A stretch of 64,000 nucleotides of DNA, taken from NCBI RefSeq assembly GCF_001017435.1, contig NZ_CP011371.1:5208001-5272000 (forward strand), in the 5' to 3' direction. Numbering within the stretch: position 1 is the first letter of the stretch; every line of letters starts with the position of its first letter. The notes beneath the pieces are model-generated. The model saw only the letters and a program-made list of their open reading frames with translations, ran no database searches and had not been told where the DNA came from. Source of the DNA: Caldimonas brevitalea (GTDB lineage Bacteria > Pseudomonadota > Gammaproteobacteria > Burkholderiales > Burkholderiaceae_C). The position numbers and the translations under genes were made by a program. Positions 29,464-38,455 of this stretch are shown piece by piece.

Positions 29464-29553
29464 CTCGAGCTCCCGGTCGTCTGTGCCGATGGCGCCGATT
29501 CTTGGGTCGCATGAGGCTGGCGCGTGAGGGGTGCGCGCGCCAGAATACTTGTC

Positions 29554-30636
29554 ATGGCAGGCCACCGTCCCTCCACCGCGCCACATTTCATGCCGCCGCC
29601 CGGGCCCGACGAGCCGAGCGTGGCGGGGGCCTACCCGGCGCTGCTTTTGGACATCGTCGCCGAGCGCGGCCACGACACCACCTCGGTGCTGGAAGCCGGC
29701 GGCCTCTCGGCCTCCGCCCTCGCGCCGCCCACCGCCCACCTGAGCGCTGCGGCCTATGCCGCTATGGTCCTGGAGGCGGCGCGCGTGACCGGCGACCCCG
29801 GCATCGGCCTCGCCCTCGGCTTGCGCCTGCATCCCAGCACCCACGGTTTTCTGGGCTATGCGCTGTTGACCTGCCGCACCTTGCGCGAGGCCATCGAGCT
29901 GGGCATGCGTTACTCGGGCCTGCGGCAACGCCACCTCGTGTTCAGCCTGCACGTCGAGGCCGATGTCGCCGCGCTGGAGGTGCGCGAGCTGGCCCCGATG
30001 GGCCCGGTCCGGCAGATCCTGCTCGAAGCCATGCTGGCCGGCGCCGCCCGCGCGCTGGGCGTGCTGCTCGGCGCGCCGTCGCCCGGGCTCGCTTTGTGGT
30101 TCCAGCATGACGAGCCACCCCACTTCGCCGCCTACCGCGAGCAGCTGCCGGCGGTGCTGTTCGGGCAATCGTCCAATCGGATGGTGTTCCCTTCCGCCTG
30201 CTTGGACGCAGCGCTGCCGCTGCACAACCGCGATGCACAAGCGCAGGCCGTCGGGCAGTGCGAGCACGAGCTGCAGTACGCGGGCGTCGGCGGTGATGCC
30301 GATCTGCCCGGCTGGGTGCAGGCGCAACTCGAACTCGAGTTGCTGCGCCCGCCCGCGCTGCCGCAGCTCGCGGCGCGCCTGCATCTGTCCGAGCGCACCC
30401 TCAAGCGCCGGCTGCAAGCCCACGGCACCAGCTTCCAGGCACTGCTCGAAAGCGCGCGGCGTCGGCGTGCGTTGCAATTGATCGCGCAACGCACCCTGAG
30501 CGTGGCCGACATCGCCGCCTTGCTCGGCTACCAGGACCCGGCCAACTTCACGCGCGCCTTTCGTCGCTGGACCGGCCGGGCCCCCAGCGAGCACCGGCTC
30601 GACAGCGGCGGCACGCTGCACCCGCCGCCGCGCTGA
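29554..30636 (+). CDS. AraC-family regulator (OruR/ArgR-like sensor domain)
   Basis: 360 residues. Residues 20-200 match the arabinose-binding-like domain of the AraC subgroup with GLALGLRLHPSTHGFLGYALLTC. The C-terminal 90 residues hold the two helix-turn-helix motifs (PALPQLAARLHLSERTLKRRL and VADIAALLGYQDPANFTRAFRRWTG). The ATG at 29554 is chosen over the in-frame GTG at 29524, which would add a basic head; neither has a strong ribosome site. The divergent membrane protein is its most likely target. Confidence 0.88.
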   Translation: MAGHRPSTAPHFMPPPGPDEPSVAGAYPALLLDIVAERGHDTTSVLEAGGLSASALAPPTAHLSAAAYAAMVLEAARVTGDPGIGLALGLRLHPSTHGFLGYALLTCRTLREAIELGMRYSGLRQRHLVFSLHVEADVAALEVRELAPMGPVRQILLEAMLAGAARALGVLLGAPSPGLALWFQHDEPPHFAAYREQLPAVLFGQSSNRMVFPSACLDAALPLHNRDAQAQAVGQCEHELQYAGVGGDADLPGWVQAQLELELLRPPALPQLAARLHLSERTLKRRLQAHGTSFQALLESARRRRALQLIAQRTLSVADIAALLGYQDPANFTRAFRRWTGRAPSEHRLDSGGTLHPPPR

Positions 30637-30907: not shown

Positions 30908-31951
30908 ATGCGCTCAACAAGATATATCGCCGAAGAATCGGCCATCGCCGGCAATGAGGCCACGCTCGCCTCGTTGTGGGCGCAGAACCTGCCGGACTAC
31001 ACGGCCGCGCTGGCGCAGGCCAAGCTGCAGCGCAGCTACCTGGGCAACCCGGCCGGCCCCGGTGCCTGCGTGCTGCTGCAGGAGCAAGCGAGTGCGCAGA
31101 CGGTCGGGGTGCAGTGTCTGCATGCGCGCGTCTTCTGGCGTGGGAGCCAGCCCTTGCACGCCGCCGGCATGGCCGACTATGTGGTGGGCCAGGCGCACCG
31201 CTCGCTCGGCCCGGCGCTGACCTTGATGCGCCGCTGCATCGCGGTGGGCAAGTCGCGCTTCGATTTCGTCTACGGTTTTCCCAACAGCAAATCCGAGCCG
31301 GTGTGCACCCGCGCTGGCATGGTCCGGGTCGGCGGCGCCACACGTTACGCCAAGCTGCTCAGCAGCGGCTTGCTGTTGCGCCAGCGCGTGCCGAAGCCGC
31401 TGCAGCCCTGGCTCGCCGCGCCGGCCGACCTGCTGCTGCGGGCGTTCGACGCCGTGCGCCAACGGCGGCACGCCAACGCCTGCAGCTGGCGCGCGGTGCG
31501 CGCCGACGACCCGGGGCTGGCCCAGCTGTGGGAACGTCGGCCGGCCGAGCTGCTGTTGTCGGAGCGGTCGCCGGCCGTGCTCGCTTGGCGTTACCCGGCG
31601 CGCGCCGGCTGGCAGCTTTCATTGGCGAGTGACGCCGACGGCCAGCCTTGCGGCTATGTGGCCTGGCGCAGCGTCGGACACGACGTGCTGATCAGCGACT
31701 TCTTCTGCGCCGACCCCGACCGTGACACGCACCGCCTGCTGGCCGGGTTCTGCCACGTGGCCCGGCGCGAGCGTGCGCATGCCGTGTTTCTCGAGTTCTA
31801 CGGACGCCCCCAGATCACCGGGGCCTTGCGGCGCGCCGGCTTTGTGCCGCGTCCGGCCCGCACGCCGATCTTCCTCGCGCATGGCGAGGAGACGGCCTGG
31901 GAAGATGCCGCGAGCCTCTACATCACCGCGTTCGACCGCGACGACGACTAG
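30908..31951 (+). CDS. GNAT-like acyltransferase, first gene of a biosynthetic operon
   Basis: 347 residues resembling GNAT/FemAB-type acyltransferases: an N-terminal part (GMADYVVGQAHRSLGPALTLMRRC, KSRFDFVYGFPNSKSEPVCTRAGM) and a C-terminal GNAT-like part ending LEFYGRPQITGALRRAGFVPRP. The acyl-CoA loop is not convincing, so activity is unproven. It is 9 bases ahead of asnB and in line with four further genes. The ATG at 30908 is preferred to 30884 because family-like sequence starts there. Confidence 0.6.
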   Translation: MRSTRYIAEESAIAGNEATLASLWAQNLPDYTAALAQAKLQRSYLGNPAGPGACVLLQEQASAQTVGVQCLHARVFWRGSQPLHAAGMADYVVGQAHRSLGPALTLMRRCIAVGKSRFDFVYGFPNSKSEPVCTRAGMVRVGGATRYAKLLSSGLLLRQRVPKPLQPWLAAPADLLLRAFDAVRQRRHANACSWRAVRADDPGLAQLWERRPAELLLSERSPAVLAWRYPARAGWQLSLASDADGQPCGYVAWRSVGHDVLISDFFCADPDRDTHRLLAGFCHVARRERAHAVFLEFYGRPQITGALRRAGFVPRPARTPIFLAHGEETAWEDAASLYITAFDRDDD

Positions 31952-31960
31952 GGCGGCGGC

Positions 31961-33898
31961 ATGTGCGGCATAGCAGGCATTTACGCCCCCCAAGCCACCC
32001 GCGGCCCCGAGCCCGAGGCGCTGCGCGCGATGATCGACCGGCTGCGGCACCGCGGCCCCGACGGCAGCGGTGTGTACACGCAGGGCCCGGTCGGCCTGGC
32101 CCATGCACGGCTGAGCATCGTCGACCCCGAGGGCGGCGCCCAGCCGCTGCACAACGAGGACCGCACGGTGTCGGTGGTCTTCAATGGCGAGATCTTCAAT
32201 CACCGCGAACTGCAGCGTGAGCTGGAGGCGCGCGGGCACCGCTTTCGCACCCGCTGCGACACCGAGGTGCTGGTGCACCTTTATGCCGAGCACGGCGAGG
32301 CCTTCGTCGAGCACTTGAACGGCCAGTTCGCGATCGCGTTGTGGGACGCGACACGCCAGCGCCTGCTGTTGGCGCGCGACCGCACCGGCATCCGCCCGCT
32401 GTTCTACACCTGGCAGCAAGGCCGGCTGCTGTTCGCCTCCGAGGTCAAGGCCTTGTTTGCCGACCCGGCCGTGCCGCGCCGCCTCGACACACGTGCGCTC
32501 GGCGAGCTGTTCACCTATTGGGCGCCGCTGGCCCCGCGTTCGGTGTTCGAGGGGGTGCTGTCGCTGCCCCCCGGCCATGTGATGACCTTCGACAGCCGCC
32601 GCCGCACGCTGCGCCGCTACTGGGACTGGCAGTTTCCGACGGCGCCGATGCAGCCTTTGGCGAGCGAGCAGGACAGCGCCGAGGCCCTGCGCGAGCTGCT
32701 GCTCGATGCGCTGCGCCTGCAGCTGCGTGCCGACGTGCCGGTGGGGGCCTACCTGAGCGGCGGGCTCGACTCGGCCATCGTCGCGGCGCTGGTGCGCGAG
32801 CACAGCAGCGCGCCCTTACGCACCTTCTCGGTCACCTTCGACGACGACGAGTTCGACGAGAGCGCCCACCAGCAGGCGCTGGTGGCGCACCTCGGCACCG
32901 ACCACACCTCGCTGCGTTGCACCCGCGCCGACATCGCCGCGGCCTTTCCGCGCGCCATCCGGCACATCGAATCGCCGGTGCTGCGGACCGCACCGGTGCC
33001 GCTGATGCTGCTGGCGGGCCAGGTGCGCCAGGCCGGCTACAAGGTGGTGCTGACCGGCGAAGGCGCGGATGAAGTGTTCGGCGGCTATGACCTGTTCAAG
33101 GAAGCCAAGGTACGCCGCTTCATGGCACGCCAGCCCGGCTCGGCCTGGCGTGCCCGCGTGCTGGACCGCCTCTATCCCTATTTGCGCCACTCGCCGACCG
33201 CGGCGCGCGGATTTGCCCAGCGCTTTTTCGCCGAGGGCCACGAGCACCTCGGGCAGCCGTTCTTCGCCCACCTGCCGCGCTGGACCACCACACAGCGCTG
33301 CTGGCAGTTCTTCTCGGCCGACCTGCAGCAGGCGCTGCAGGGCTTCGATGCACAGCAAGCGATACGCTCGGCACTGCCGCCCGAGATCGAGCACTGGGAA
33401 CCGCTGTGCCAGGACCAGTACCTGGAGGCCCACACGCTGATGTCGGGCTATCTGCTGTCGTCGCAAGGCGACCGGGTCGCGATGGCGGAGTCGGTCGAAG
33501 GCCGCTTCCCCTTCCTCGACCACCGGGTCATCGAGTTCGCCAACCGATTGCCGCCCGGCATGAAGCTGCGCGGGCTGACCGAAAAATACCTGCTCAAGCA
33601 GTCGGTGCGCGGCCTGATCCCCGAAGACATTCGCCGCCGCACCAAGCAGCCCTACCGCGCCCCCGACAGCCAGAGCTTCTTCCACGACGGCCGCCCGGTC
33701 GACTATGTCGAAGACCTGCTGAGCCCGACCCGATTGCGCGCAGCCGGCTATTTCGACCCGGTCGCCGTCGGCAAGCTGTTCGACAAATGCCGTGCCGGCC
33801 GCGCGATCGGCTTCGGCGACAACATGGCCTTCGTCGGCATCGTCTCCACCATGCTGCTGCACGAGCAGATGCTCGCGCCGGCCGCCCCATCTCTTTGA
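31961..33898 (+). CDS. asnB: Asparagine synthase-type glutamine amidotransferase
   Basis: 645 residues. The N-terminal class II glutaminase domain begins MCGIAGIYAP, so Cys2 becomes the nucleophile after Met removal; RLSIVDPEGGAQPL, NGEIFNHREL and the C-terminal PP-loop LSGGLDSAI (about residue 265) follow. The enzyme would transfer glutamine-derived ammonia to a carboxylate activated with ATP. Its length and context (ligase, acyl carrier protein) resemble the exosortase-A-associated amidotransferases more than housekeeping AsnB, so the acceptor may not be aspartate. No exosortase is in the window. Confidence 0.85.
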   Translation: MCGIAGIYAPQATRGPEPEALRAMIDRLRHRGPDGSGVYTQGPVGLAHARLSIVDPEGGAQPLHNEDRTVSVVFNGEIFNHRELQRELEARGHRFRTRCDTEVLVHLYAEHGEAFVEHLNGQFAIALWDATRQRLLLARDRTGIRPLFYTWQQGRLLFASEVKALFADPAVPRRLDTRALGELFTYWAPLAPRSVFEGVLSLPPGHVMTFDSRRRTLRRYWDWQFPTAPMQPLASEQDSAEALRELLLDALRLQLRADVPVGAYLSGGLDSAIVAALVREHSSAPLRTFSVTFDDDEFDESAHQQALVAHLGTDHTSLRCTRADIAAAFPRAIRHIESPVLRTAPVPLMLLAGQVRQAGYKVVLTGEGADEVFGGYDLFKEAKVRRFMARQPGSAWRARVLDRLYPYLRHSPTAARGFAQRFFAEGHEHLGQPFFAHLPRWTTTQRCWQFFSADLQQALQGFDAQQAIRSALPPEIEHWEPLCQDQYLEAHTLMSGYLLSSQGDRVAMAESVEGRFPFLDHRVIEFANRLPPGMKLRGLTEKYLLKQSVRGLIPEDIRRRTKQPYRAPDSQSFFHDGRPVDYVEDLLSPTRLRAAGYFDPVAVGKLFDKCRAGRAIGFGDNMAFVGIVSTMLLHEQMLAPAAPSL

Positions 33899-33918
33899 CC
33901 GCCCGGTCGCTGCCCTGC

Positions 33919-35451
33919 ATGCTGCTCCACGACGATTTCGAAGCCTCGGTGCGCCGGCACCCGAACAAGACGGCCCTGATCTGCGGCGCCGAACGCCACA
34001 GCTACGCCGACATCGACCGTCTTGCCACGACCTTCGCAGCGCAGCTGCAGCGTGCGGGCATCGAGCGCGGCGACCGCGTGGCGCTGCTGCTCGACAACCG
34101 GGTCGAAATGGTGGCCGGCGTTTATGCCGCCCTCAAGATCGGCGCGGTGTTCATGCCGGTCAACCCGCTCACCAAGGCCGACAAACTCACCTATCTGCTC
34201 AACGACGCACGGGCGTCGGCGCTGATCACGCAGGCCACGCTGGCATCGGTCTACCGTGTTGCGCTGGCCGCCAACAGCAGTGTGCGGCTGTGCGCCGTGG
34301 CCGGCAGCGTGCGTGGCGACGGCCCGAGCGACGCTCGCGAGCAAACCCTGGCCTCGGCCGATGCGGCCGTGCCACTGCCCACCGTCGCCACCATCGACCA
34401 GGACCTGGCCGCCATCGTCTACACCTCCGGCTCCACCGGCTTCCCCAAAGGGGTGATGCTCAGCCACCTTAACATGCGCACCGCCGCGGCCTCGGTCAGC
34501 AGCTACCTTGGCTTGCGGGAGGACGACGTCATCCTGTGCGCCCTGCCGCTGGCCTTCGACTACGGCCTGTACCAGGTGCTGATGGCCTTGCGCCTCGGCG
34601 CCACGGTGGTGCTCGAGCGCTCGTTCAGCTTTCCGGCCAAGGTGCTGGAGACGATGGCGCGCGAGCGCGTGACGGTGTTCCCCGGCGTGCCGACGATGTT
34701 CTCGATGCTGTTCGAGCTGCCACAGCTGCTGGCGTCGACCGACCTGTCGGCACTGCGGCTCATCACCAACACCGCGGCGGCCTTGTCGGAAGCCCACATC
34801 GCGCGGCTGCGCACGCTGTTCCCGCAGGCCACCTTGTTCTCGATGTACGGCCTGACCGAGTGCAAGCGCGTCACCTATCTGCCACCCGACCAGCTCGACT
34901 GGCGCCCCACCAGCGTCGGGCGCGGCATGCCCAACGAGGAGTTGTGGCTGGTCGACGAGCACGGGCAGCGCCTGCCGCACGGCAGCACCGGCGAGCTGGT
35001 GATCCGCGGCAGCCACGTGATGCGCGGCTACTGGGAAAAACCGGCCGAGACCGCCGAACGCCTCAAGCCAGGCCCGCTGCCGGGCGAATCCGTGCTGTAT
35101 TCGGGCGACATCTTCCGCAGTGACGCCGAAGGGTATCTCTACTTCGTCGCGCGCAAGGACGACGTGATCAAGAGCCGCGGCGAGAAGGTCAGCCCGCGCG
35201 AAGTCGAGAACGTGCTGTATGCGCTCGACGGCGTGCGCGAAGCGGCCGTGGTCGGCGTGCCCGACCCGGTGCTCGGCGAGGCGGTCAAGGCCGTGGTTGC
35301 CTTGCGGCCTGGCTGCAACCTGAGCGAACGCGACGTCATCAAACACTGTTTGGCCCACCTGGAGAGCTTCATGGCGCCGCGCTATGTCGAGTTCGTCGAC
35401 AGCCTGCCCAAGACCGACACCGGCAAGATCAAGAAGACCGGCCTCGCCTGA
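33919..35451 (+). CDS. AMP-dependent acyl/amino-acid ligase
   Basis: 510 residues of the adenylate-forming (ANL) superfamily: P-loop YTSGSTGFPKGVMLSH (about residues 167-182), A5-type YGLTECKRV, A7-type YSGDIFRSDAEGY, A8-type RKDDVIKSRGEKVSPREVE and the catalytic lysine in TDTGKIKKTGL near the C-terminus. It would adenylate a carboxylic acid and probably load it on the acyl carrier protein encoded 56 bases downstream. It resembles the acyl-CoA ligases associated with exosortase A loci. Start chosen at 33919, 20 bases after asnB. Confidence 0.88.
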   Translation: MLLHDDFEASVRRHPNKTALICGAERHSYADIDRLATTFAAQLQRAGIERGDRVALLLDNRVEMVAGVYAALKIGAVFMPVNPLTKADKLTYLLNDARASALITQATLASVYRVALAANSSVRLCAVAGSVRGDGPSDAREQTLASADAAVPLPTVATIDQDLAAIVYTSGSTGFPKGVMLSHLNMRTAAASVSSYLGLREDDVILCALPLAFDYGLYQVLMALRLGATVVLERSFSFPAKVLETMARERVTVFPGVPTMFSMLFELPQLLASTDLSALRLITNTAAALSEAHIARLRTLFPQATLFSMYGLTECKRVTYLPPDQLDWRPTSVGRGMPNEELWLVDEHGQRLPHGSTGELVIRGSHVMRGYWEKPAETAERLKPGPLPGESVLYSGDIFRSDAEGYLYFVARKDDVIKSRGEKVSPREVENVLYALDGVREAAVVGVPDPVLGEAVKAVVALRPGCNLSERDVIKHCLAHLESFMAPRYVEFVDSLPKTDTGKIKKTGLA

Positions 35452-35507
35452 GCCACCCGACATCACCACCATTTTTCCCGCCCCGTTCTTTACTTCACGA
35501 GCACCAC

Positions 35508-35765
35508 ATGCCCATCGCCATCAAGCAGCAGGTCCGCGCCTACATCCTCGACAACTTCCTGATGGGGACGCAAGGCGCCGAGTTCGCCGACAGCGACTCC
35601 TTCATGGAACACCACGTGATCGATTCGACCGGTTTTCTCGAACTGGTCACCTACCTCGAGGAGGCCTTCGGCATCCGCGTCGAAGACGAAGAGATGGTGC
35701 CGGAGAACCTGGACAGCCTCGACAACATCGAGGCCTATGTGAGCCGCAAGCTCACGCTGCACTGA
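35508..35765 (+). CDS. Acyl/peptidyl carrier protein
   Basis: 85 residues of the ACP fold. The phosphopantetheine attachment serine is S40 in HVIDSTGFLELV, followed by the usual acidic helix YLEEAFGIRVEDEEMVPENLDSLDNI. It lies between the AMP-ligase and the NAD-synthase-like gene and is the likely tether for the ligase product. It is not the fatty-acid AcpP, whose motif is DSLDTVELV. Confidence 0.9.
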   Translation: MPIAIKQQVRAYILDNFLMGTQGAEFADSDSFMEHHVIDSTGFLELVTYLEEAFGIRVEDEEMVPENLDSLDNIEAYVSRKLTLH

Positions 35766-35775
35766 GCTGGCGGCG

Positions 35776-36774
35776 ATGAGCAGCAAGACCACGGTGCGTC
35801 TGGACACCTCGGTGCTCGCGCTCGACTGCGAACGCGAGGCGCAGCGCATCGCCGACTGGCTGCGGCACGGCATCGCGCAGCGTTTGCACCGACGCGGCGC
35901 GGTGGTGGCGCTGTCGGGCGGCATCGACAGCTCGGTGTGTGCCGCGCTCGCGGTGCGGGCGTTGGGGCCCGGCAAGGTGTTCGGGCTGTTGTTGCCCGAG
36001 CTGGATTCGAGCGCGAGCAGCGCCGACCTCGGCCGCAGCGTCGCCGAGCACCTCGGCATCGCCTACGAGCTGCACGACATCGCCCCGGCGCTGCAGGCGC
36101 TCGGGTGCTACCGGCAGCGCGATGCGGCGATGCGCGCGGTGTTCCCGGCCTACACCCCGGCGTGGAAGAGCAAGCTGGCGATCGCCGGTGGCACTGCCGG
36201 GCGCATCAACTGCTTCAAGCTGGTGGTGCAATCGCCCGACGGCGAGCAGCACGAGGCCCGCTTGCCGCTGAGGGAGTATCTGCAGATCGTCGCCGCGACC
36301 AACTACAAGCAGCGCATCCGCAAGACCGTCGAGTACTGCCATGCCGACCGGCTCCACTACGCGGTGATCGGCACGCCCAACCGGCTCGAGTACGACCAGG
36401 GCTTTTTCGTCAAGAACGGTGACGGCGCCGCCGACCTGAAACCCATCGCCCATCTGTACAAGACCCAGGTCTATGCGATGGCGCGCCATCTAGGCCTGCC
36501 CGAGGGCGTCTGCCAGGCCCAGCCCACCACCGACACCTACAGCCTGCAGCAGGGGCAGGACGAGTTCTATTTCGCGCTGCCCTACGCGCAGATGGACCTC
36601 GCCTTGTGGGCCCACCGTCACCAGGTGCCGCCCGAAGATCTGGCCGAGGCGCTCGCGCTCGACCTCGACACGGTGCAGTTCATCTACCGCGACATCGAAG
36701 CCAAGCGCCGCAGCACCGCGTATCTGCATGCGCGGCCGATGCTGGTGGAGACGGTCGACGAGGTGTGCGCATGA
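35776..36774 (+). CDS. NAD-synthase-like PP-loop amidoligase
   Basis: 332 residues close to ammonia-dependent NadE: ATP motif ALSGGIDSSV (residues 45-54), NYKQRIRKTVEYCHA, IGTPNRLEYDQGFFVKNGDGAADLKPI and LYKTQVYAMARHLG. NadE makes NAD+ from deamido-NAD+. An insertion-like stretch (INCFKLVVQSPDGEQHEARLP, about residues 145-165) is not seen in typical short NadE. Position inside a carrier-protein operon suggests either a supply role or a reassigned amidation step. It starts 10 bases after the ACP and overlaps the methyltransferase gene by four bases. Confidence 0.8.
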   Translation: MSSKTTVRLDTSVLALDCEREAQRIADWLRHGIAQRLHRRGAVVALSGGIDSSVCAALAVRALGPGKVFGLLLPELDSSASSADLGRSVAEHLGIAYELHDIAPALQALGCYRQRDAAMRAVFPAYTPAWKSKLAIAGGTAGRINCFKLVVQSPDGEQHEARLPLREYLQIVAATNYKQRIRKTVEYCHADRLHYAVIGTPNRLEYDQGFFVKNGDGAADLKPIAHLYKTQVYAMARHLGLPEGVCQAQPTTDTYSLQQGQDEFYFALPYAQMDLALWAHRHQVPPEDLAEALALDLDTVQFIYRDIEAKRRSTAYLHARPMLVETVDEVCA

Positions 36775-37715
36775 CCGGGCCGGCCTTGCGACAGCCTGCC
36801 GACACGCACGCGCTCGGCGAGGCGGCCGAAGGCCTGTTCGCGCAGTTGTCGCAGGCGCTGCAGCAAGGCCTGCAGCAGCAGCCCGACAAGCCTGAAGAAA
36901 CGCCGGCCAACACGCTGCGCGCCTTGTGGCACCTGGCCGCCGGCCGGCCGTTGTCGGCCCAGGCCGCAGCGGCCGCCGCGCTGCCGCCGCTCACGGCCCC
37001 GCAGCGCGAACGGCTGCACGCCCTGGTCGGCGAGCGCCTGGCCGGCCGCCCGCTCGCCCACCTGACCGGCCGGCAGCACTTCATGGCGATGGAACTGCTC
37101 GCCGGCCCCGAAGCGCTGATCCCGCGCCGCGAGACCGAGTTGCTCGGGCGCACGGCCTGCGCACTGCTCGGCGAGTTGGTGCACAGCCGCGCGGCGCCCG
37201 TCGCGATCGACGTCTGCACCGGGTCGGGCAACCTGGCGCTCGCGCTGGCCGGCACCGCCGCCGCAGCCCGCGTCTACGGCGCCGACCTGTCGCCCGAAGC
37301 GCTCGACCTGGCGCGCCGCAACGCCGACCACCTCGGCCTGTCCTCGCGTATCGATTGGCGCTGCTGTGACCTGCTCGACGGCTTCGACCCCGAGTTGCTC
37401 GGCGAGGTCGACCTGCTGGTCTGCAACCCGCCCTACATCTCGAGCGGCCGGCTGGCCGCGATGCCCGGCGAGATCGCCGGCCATGAGCCGCGCCTGGCCT
37501 TCGACGGCGGGCCGCTGGGCATCGCGCTGCTGAACCGGCTGGTGCGCGAGGCACCGCGCTTCCTGCGCGCAGGGGGATGGCTGGCCGTGGAGGTGGGCCT
37601 GGGACAGGGCCGCGCGATGCAGCAACGACTGGAGGCGCAGCGCCGCTTCCGCCCCGTGCGCCCGGTCCAGGACGAGGCCGGCGAGACCCGCGTGCTCGCC
37701 GCACAGCTGGCATGA
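36771..37715 (+). CDS. PrmC/HemK-like methyltransferase
   Basis: 314 residues. The SAM-binding Rossmann domain has AIDVCTGSGNLALALA, VYGADLSPEALDLARRN and the N5-glutamine methyltransferase signature VCNPPYIS (NPPY at about residues 218-221). The N-terminal helical part (LRALWHLAAGRPLS, LTGRQHFMAMEL, IPRRETELL) follows the PrmC plan. PrmC genes usually sit next to prfA; this one is last in the biosynthetic operon, so it probably methylates an amide, acid or amine of the operon's product. Start overlaps the previous stop (ATGA). Confidence 0.8.
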   Translation: MTGPALRQPADTHALGEAAEGLFAQLSQALQQGLQQQPDKPEETPANTLRALWHLAAGRPLSAQAAAAAALPPLTAPQRERLHALVGERLAGRPLAHLTGRQHFMAMELLAGPEALIPRRETELLGRTACALLGELVHSRAAPVAIDVCTGSGNLALALAGTAAAARVYGADLSPEALDLARRNADHLGLSSRIDWRCCDLLDGFDPELLGEVDLLVCNPPYISSGRLAAMPGEIAGHEPRLAFDGGPLGIALLNRLVREAPRFLRAGGWLAVEVGLGQGRAMQQRLEAQRRFRPVRPVQDEAGETRVLAAQLA

Positions 37716-37735
37716 ACGTGAGGGACAATGGACCG

Positions 37736-38455
37736 ATGTCCCTTCGCGGCTTGCATTTCGCCGCCTTGACCCCCATGACCCGCTTGACCGACATGCTCCG
37801 CAGCTCCGGCTGGGGGCGCAATCTGACGCCCAGTGAATTCGACCGCGTGGCCCGCGACGCGCAAGAGGTGACAGTGCCGGCGGGCGGCTATGTGGCCCGC
37901 AACGGTGAACCGGCCGAGCACTGGCTCGGCATCCTCCACGGCTTGGCCAAGATGTCGGTCACCTCGCCCGAAGGCCGCACCTCGACGCTCACCGGCGCCC
38001 GCACCGGCGCCTGGTTCGGCGAAGGCTCACTGCTGAAGAAGGAATTGCGGCGCTACGACGTGATCGCGATCCGCGACACCCGCGTGGCCCTGGTGCCGGC
38101 GGCCAGCTTCGAATGGCTGCGCGCCACCAGCCTGCCGTTCAACCACTACCTGCAAAACCTGCTCAACGCGCGGCTCGGCTTGTTCATCGGGCTGCTCGAA
38201 TACGACCGTTTGCTGGGGCCCGATGCGCGCGTGGCCCGCTGTGTCGCCAGCCTGTTCAACCCCGACCTCTACCCGGAGCCCGGGCCGTATGTCGATCTGC
38301 TGCAGGCCGAGGTGGGGCTGCTGTCGGGCGTCTCGCGCCAACGCGCCAACGTCGCGTTGCAGCGATTGCAGCAAGCCGGGTTGATCCGCATCGAGAACCG
38401 CGGCCTGACGGTGCTTGACCTGGGCGGGCTGAGGCGGTTCGCCGGCGGCGGCTGA
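37736..38455 (+). CDS. Crp/Fnr-family transcriptional regulator
   Basis: 239 residues: cyclic-nucleotide-binding-like beta roll (VPAGGYVARNGEPAEHWLGIL, GAWFGEGSLL) and a C-terminal winged helix (QAEVGLLSGVSRQRANVALQRLQQAGLI). No Fnr cysteine cluster is seen. GAGGGAC 9 bases before the ATG at 37736 decides this start over 37712 and 37775. It lies 20 bases after the methyltransferase and 59 bases before ureD, so it may govern either system. Confidence 0.85.
   Translation: MSLRGLHFAALTPMTRLTDMLRSSGWGRNLTPSEFDRVARDAQEVTVPAGGYVARNGEPAEHWLGILHGLAKMSVTSPEGRTSTLTGARTGAWFGEGSLLKKELRRYDVIAIRDTRVALVPAASFEWLRATSLPFNHYLQNLLNARLGLFIGLLEYDRLLGPDARVARCVASLFNPDLYPEPGPYVDLLQAEVGLLSGVSRQRANVALQRLQQAGLIRIENRGLTVLDLGGLRRFAGGG

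Follow-up and report, generated by a model that had tools for sequence, protein, structure and literature searches.

In D-alanylation (Dlt)-type systems an acid is activated, carried on a small carrier and passed to a surface polymer, and in the glutarimide polyketide systems an AsnB-type amidotransferase works with a stand-alone acyl carrier protein (ACP) to provide the malonamyl-ACP starter. The locus considered here can be compared with both of these and with the exosortase A (XrtA/PEP-CTERM) loci. It is a run of six genes on the plus strand at positions 30,908 to 37,715 of a 64,000-nucleotide stretch of Caldimonas brevitalea DNA (the window; NZ_CP011371.1, 5,208,001 to 5,272,000), which corresponds to 5,238,908-5,245,715 of a genome that forms one contig of 6,476,147 bases. 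The genes encode, in order, a GNAT-like protein, an AsnB-type glutamine amidotransferase, an AMP-forming ligase, a discrete ACP, a NadE-like ATP-pyrophosphatase and a PrmC/HemK-like methyltransferase. In contrast to the glutarimide systems, the operon has no polyketide synthase and combines its own AMP-ligase with NadE-like and PrmC-like partners, and in contrast to Dlt it contains amidating enzymes and no DltB-type protein among the six genes, to which that comparison was confined. TIGR03098 of the exosortase A systems is the best NCBIfam match of the ligase and TIGR03108 is the second best match of AsnB (after TIGR01536), and relatives of the module often lie among such exopolysaccharide genes, but the scores (468.5 bits against a cut-off of 592.35 and 469.8 against 816.9, respectively) fall short of the curated families, the NadE-like gene is an addition and no exosortase is near this copy. 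Hence, the likeness to exosortase A loci seen in the initial annotation holds as relatedness, and the operon is not an exosortase locus. What we find instead is that it belongs, at full length, to a portable module, the core of which is the AMP-ligase, the discrete ACP and the NadE-like enzyme, usually accompanied by AsnB. A search of the open-access literature with narrow terms returned no published link of NadE-like genes to exosortase, ACP or AsnB loci, the gene set is apparently undescribed, and the module is best read as a variant of carrier-protein tailoring modules that is new as a gene set.

The recurrence of the module was assessed in 94 loci, consisting of the 80 best of 555 confirmed related loci, a selection biased to close kin, and 14 loci obtained by sampling the phylum evenly. 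Within 7 kb, the ACP is present in 88 of them, the ligase in 88, both in 87, AsnB in 74, the PrmC-like gene in 33 and the GNAT-like gene in 22, and all six genes occur together in 3/94. Where at least 6 kb before and at least 2.5 kb after the NadE-like gene are available (66/94 loci), the ACP is found every time (66/66), the ligase in 65/66 and AsnB in 57/66, with the PrmC-like (23/66) and GNAT-like (20/66) genes as optional members. Seven loci lack the ACP or the ligase, and six of these have less than 3.7 kb before the NadE-like gene. The less biased 14 loci give the same picture (ACP 14/14, ligase 14/14, AsnB 13/14). Later samples were positive in 17/369 genomes of the class, 3/385 of the class of genome G274 and 2/399 of the order, counts that include genomes already known and, for the order, the window's own; they supplied 15 new non-duplicate loci, with the ACP in 14, AsnB in 12, the ligase in 11 and PrmC in 2. 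The initial annotation had held that confinement to one lineage would speak against a pathway, and the module in fact recurs across Proteobacteria and in some metagenome-assembled genomes labelled as other phyla. The operon-like set with an ACP-centred core is thereby borne out, whereas the six genes are not a fixed unit, and of the two genes that were to be checked as constant companions of the ACP, the NadE-like gene proves to be one wherever there is enough flank (and in 14/15 of the later loci) while the PrmC-like gene does not.

The NadE-like enzyme (35,776-36,774, plus strand, 332 residues) is by score and by fold a member of the NAD synthase family: it reaches 493.2 bits against NF002048 (PRK00876), named 'NAD(+) synthase', with a cut-off of 313, matches the NAD_synthase domain (E 9.3e-46), carries the PP-loop motif SGGxDS and has a predicted NadE fold. 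It differs from that family in three respects. It is the third NadE-type gene and not the sole NadE of its genome, where two further PF02540 genes (frames of 572 and 612 residues) score better. Its substrate region is not that of an ordinary NadE, since it has a large insert of about 50 residues (query 108-175 opposite residues 89-104 of the chain in 2e18; approximately residues 110-165) that is conserved in relatives. Finally, it nearly always adjoins the ACP and the ligase where flank is available, and as a control the 15-kb stretches that hold the other two NadE genes of this genome contain no ACP, ligase, AsnB or PrmC. By this conserved addition the substrate pocket of NadE is probably remodelled, and 'NAD(+) synthase' is probably a misnomer for these members of NF002048 and for most of the family; if true, a protein family present in about 4% of the sampled genomes of the phylum (15/398, the window's own included) would be relabelled. 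NF002048 also matches in Methanosarcina acetivorans, one of the control genomes. A 1581-residue frame at the NadE match of genome G167 was considered as a fusion and dropped, as it represents separate genes with shadow frames.

The ligase (33,919-35,451, plus strand, 510 residues; AMP-binding domain E 8.3e-98) has a pocket that reads D214 Y215 Y218 P255 I282 N284 M309 R317 V318 K503 at the positions that we take to line it, and position 214 is presumably the amino-group-binding site of amino-acid-activating enzymes. Taking for each locus the ligase nearest the NadE-like gene gives 89 rows, in which M309 and R317 are identical throughout (89/89, and 11/11 new rows, across two deep clades) and the other pocket positions vary. 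Position 214 is Asp in 35/89 rows and another residue in 54/89, the alternatives in relatives being S, A, G, N, T or C. Within 4 kb of the core, a PrmC-like gene accompanies 32/35 of the Asp rows and 0/54 of the non-Asp rows (Fisher p 4e-21, a value that ignores kinship). The 11 new rows comprise two Asp rows with PrmC, two Asp rows without, seven non-Asp rows without and no non-Asp row with it, so that in the pooled data Asp214 accompanies PrmC in 34/34 loci and PrmC is present in 0/61 non-Asp loci. On the ligase tree Asp changes four times and its three losses all coincide with the absence of PrmC; on the NadE tree PrmC changes nine times on the best tree and three times on supported branches. 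PrmC seems from these comparisons to need an Asp-type ligase, and the converse does not hold. In both the window and C. mangrovi (L003) the operon is followed by a related crp gene and then by a similar open reading frame (ORF), with NadE proteins at 78%, and yet the two ligases belong to different clades, that of L003 having Ser and no PrmC; Asp and PrmC are found only in the window. Two loci, L011 (6457-9605) and L144 (3161-6640), have two ligases in one module, with Asp and Ser pockets.

We now put forward a hypothetical mechanism, to which we give about an even chance, in which the portable module loads a small acid on the ACP, amidates it, optionally N-methylates it and transfers the acyl group. 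It draws on the gene set and its conservation, the intact catalytic motifs, the third-NadE status, two predicted folds and the Asp214-PrmC association, and it is from these that we infer the substrate, the acceptor and the chemistry of each step. The ligase would activate a small acid with a second acidic group, proposed because the pocket Arg317 is invariant, and load it on the ACP. The NadE-like enzyme would turn the free carboxylate of the acid into a carboxamide, with AsnB providing ammonia or forming a second amide. In the case of an Asp214 ligase the acid would be one with an amino group, and any PrmC-like enzyme of the locus would N-methylate this amine or the new amide. The tandem GNAT would take the completed acyl group off the ACP and attach it to an amine or hydroxyl of an acceptor, which in many relatives is probably surface polysaccharide and which here would have to be encoded elsewhere or be a free metabolite. 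Loading, on-carrier amidation, optional N-methylation and transfer would be the simplest chemistry that fits. A bolder form of this proposal, which we regard as rather unlikely as a whole and offer only tentatively, is that the entire 'NAD(+) synthase' subfamily makes amides of carrier-bound acids and would perhaps be the first case of a NadE-type enzyme devoted to such a pathway, traveling with the ligase and the ACP as a mobile core. The ligase pocket would tell whether a PrmC-derived enzyme may N-methylate, and the pathway would yield amidated acyl groups of a new class, N-methylated in some cases and borne by bacterial glycans, or else a small molecule probably outside the 17 predicted clusters of the strain. 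If true, the module would represent an unexplored bacterial route to amides on carrier-bound acids, and the ligase Asp would provide a sequence rule for one tailoring step.

A number of observations weigh against the proposed mechanism. AsnB is missing from 9/66 of the loci with sufficient flank, L062 lacks the ligase outright, and no ligase is detectable in 4/15 of the new loci: L148 and L150, from one genus, have AsnB-ACP-NadE, L155 has only ACP and NadE, which are adjacent, and L158 shows no ACP, ligase or AsnB in the 9 kb upstream, its other side being a contig end. The link of the ligase to the NadE-like gene is strong, yet not absolute. As to the pocket, its positions are presumed from numbering rather than computed from a structure, the link of Asp to PrmC was spotted post hoc in the first set, the new set has only two PrmC loci, and nine Thiomonas-like rows, being near kin, inflate the counts. 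When kinship is considered, the ligase tree (column 214 left out) gives four independent pairs with a median sign test p of 0.25, and the NadE tree four pairs with a median p of 0.5. Asp occurs without an adjacent PrmC in L065, L079, L117, L156 and L157, and a second, Asp-type ligase without PrmC is present in L011, L144 and L057. In the genome of L117 the methyltransferase is found about 20 kb past the ACP, and the DNA in between has PgtA and GT4 matches; the genome of L157 (G830) has only a 75.6-bit match and that of L156 (G723) has none at 1e-35, among 369 genomes assumed to be the class sample. The association could then reflect shared ancestry of ligase and methyltransferase, with no common substrate, an explanation that we consider doubtful but by no means negligible. 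The small number of independent changes, the non-significant sign tests and the Asp ligases that lack PrmC (five NadE-side rows together with the extra ligases of L011, L144, L057 and L043) are what it would lead one to expect, but the loss of Asp on three separate occasions on the ligase tree, each time without PrmC, the nine changes of PrmC on the best NadE tree (only three of them forced by supported branches) and the absence of PrmC beside a non-Asp NadE-side ligase (0/61) are not.

The explanations weighed here overlap and are not mutually exclusive, and the likelihoods that we attach to them need not sum to one. In particular, the module might decorate an exopolysaccharide and here serve in trans an export locus at 3.79 Mb or 1.38 Mb, which we judge only somewhat less probable than the even chance given above. 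This bears on the 'metabolite' named in the initial annotation, which is one option for the product, polysaccharide decoration being another, since in a context set of 71 loci of at least 14 kb, searched with 11 glycan-related cluster representatives that include two glycosyltransferase families (representatives being named by Pfam and NCBIfam), at least two glycan families are present in 29/71 loci and at least one in 37/71. Moreover, a Wzz/export/PgtA locus lies at 3.79 Mb of the genome itself, its sole exosortase, at 1.38 Mb, is 3 kb from an export gene, and it has no second AsnB. On the other hand, the set formed by KASIII, an ACP-like ORF (c26) and Acet1 is represented by at least two members in 9/71 loci, 33/71 loci reach two families in neither this set nor the glycan one, and nothing ties the operon to either export locus. 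The window, too, matched none of the 11 glycan representatives, a result of single-sequence phmmer searches, which have limited sensitivity and do not cover all glycosyltransferase families, and this is a further point against the proposed mechanism. It also contains no exosortase, the single copy of the genome being at 1,379,975 as compared to 5.24 Mb for the operon. The earlier statement that exosortase, glycosyltransferase and PEP-CTERM genes are missing is thus upheld for exosortase in the window and, within that sensitivity, for the two glycosyltransferase families, PEP-CTERM having been outside the search. It is improbable, in our estimation, that the carboxamide comes from AsnB and is then activated by the NadE-like enzyme, in the manner of QueC and the acetamidino-forming PP-loop enzymes, to give a nitrile or amidine that PrmC may methylate. 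Least probable by far is a housekeeping role, in which the operon makes asparagine and NAD and the remaining genes are unrelated passengers. AsnB does pass TIGR01536 (520.7 bits, cut-off 267.1) and is the only AsnB found genome-wide, in a search that did not extend to AsnA, AsnRS and GatCAB, and the NadE-like protein does pass NF002048, but the genome has two further NadE genes, the linkage to the ACP and ligase is nearly complete, and occurrence is scattered, one of the two positive genomes in the order being the window's own.

Of the remaining four proteins, the GNAT-like protein (30,908-31,951, plus strand, 347 residues) has no Pfam or NCBIfam match at 0.001, and its predicted model is a confident tandem GNAT with an N-myristoyltransferase/Eis-like fold, making it a candidate acyltransferase. 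Its nearest named relatives, among 28 matches from 8000 candidates scored, are hypothetical proteins of Eleftheria terrae (66%) and Aquabacterium sp. A7-Y (64%). AsnB (31,961-33,898, plus strand, 645 residues) contains PF00733 (E 5.1e-97) and GATase_7 domains and, by TIGR01536, Cys2 and SGGLDS, has the sequence features of a glutamine-hydrolysing asparagine synthase; in relatives C2 is kept in 71/71, SGGLDS in 74/74 and R342 in 74/74. The only other PF00733 match in the genome is the NadE-like gene. The ACP (35,508-35,765, plus strand, 85 residues) scores 22.3 bits against PF00550 (PP-binding, cut-off 20.8), has its phosphopantetheine Ser40 within DSTGF, and retains D39 and S40 in 89/89 rows. 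The PrmC-like protein (36,771-37,715, plus strand, 314 residues), a paralogue of the PrmC/HemK S-adenosylmethionine-dependent methyltransferases, has methyltransferase domains and resembles the PrmC/HemK glutamine N-methyltransferases (E 2e-25), with which it shares the NPPY motif (P220, P221 and Y222 kept in 32/32), and the PDB entry 23lq, named apramycin N-methyltransferase (E 1e-7). It differs from PrmC itself in narrowly missing the cut-offs of TIGR03534 (195.5 bits against 199.1) and of PrmC_N (PF17827, 22.1 against 23.4), and a higher-scoring PrmC is encoded elsewhere in the genome at 5,420,102 (269.7 bits). A PrmC relative of the module type (L159, G593:C28; 175 and 291 bits) occurs in a genome that is not among the NF002048 matches, on a 4.8-kb contig with no other module gene. 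The Legionella legionaminic-acid N-methylation operon (ORF 8-12) was considered as a match and rejected since, as far as the accounts of it in PMC3766260 and PMC13306086 go, ORF 8 is a methyltransferase and ORF 9 a NeuB-type synthase, a different set.

The tight packing of the six genes described in the initial annotation agrees with their coordinates, the gaps being 9, 20, 56 and 10 bases followed by a 4-base overlap (-4). The end of the transcription unit at 37,715 may not be certain: a second ATGA overlap leads from the PrmC-like gene into a gene for a Crp/Fnr-family regulator (37,712-38,455, plus strand; PF00027 E 3.5e-16), and therefore the unit may extend past that point. The regulator gene is probably a chromosomal neighbor and not a pathway member; in L003 a close Crp relative (529 bits) is located 2.3 kb past NadE. 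An AraC-family regulator gene (29,524-30,636) lies directly upstream of the operon on the same strand, and L116 also has an AraC-type ORF upstream (71 bits). It was not counted as part of the module, since 0/94 loci, L116 included, pass 1e-30, AraC matches in the first 80 loci having been considered only above 150 bits. A promoter scan found no sigma-70-like site, an Rfam scan gave no match, and terminator-like sites number 6 compared to 3.8 +/- 2.3 in shuffles. The glidobactin deletion listed in Table 1 of PMC8302735 (2,677,295-2,694,602) spans an AMP-binding gene located here at 2,677,631, and the strain and coordinates of that paper, on Schlegelella brevitalea DSM 7029, a laboratory chassis with recombineering, therefore very probably match those used here. 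By that table, the operon is outside all of the deleted regions, with BGC16 (5.02 Mb) before it and BGC17 (6.07 Mb) after it, and because the table numbers the clusters in order of position, the operon probably belongs to none of the 17 predicted clusters of the strain, as far as the table goes.

In some relatives the module has other neighbors. In Thiomonas-type loci the genes for MoCF and histidine kinase seem to be chromosomal neighbors. In L116 the content is AraC, AsnB, ACP, ligase, NadE, an ORF weakly matching a stretch of Pks13 (E 4.6e-5), a further ORF and PrmC. The window has none of the KASIII-type neighbors. KASIII, a second ACP-like ORF and FabZ-like and FabG-like genes adjoin the module in L013 (3731-6264), L034, L069 and L005, with the full set checked only in L013, where the FabZ- and FabG-like genes score below the curated cut-offs; these KASIII/Fab-like neighbors could possibly constitute a short-chain acyl pathway that feeds or extends the product of the module.

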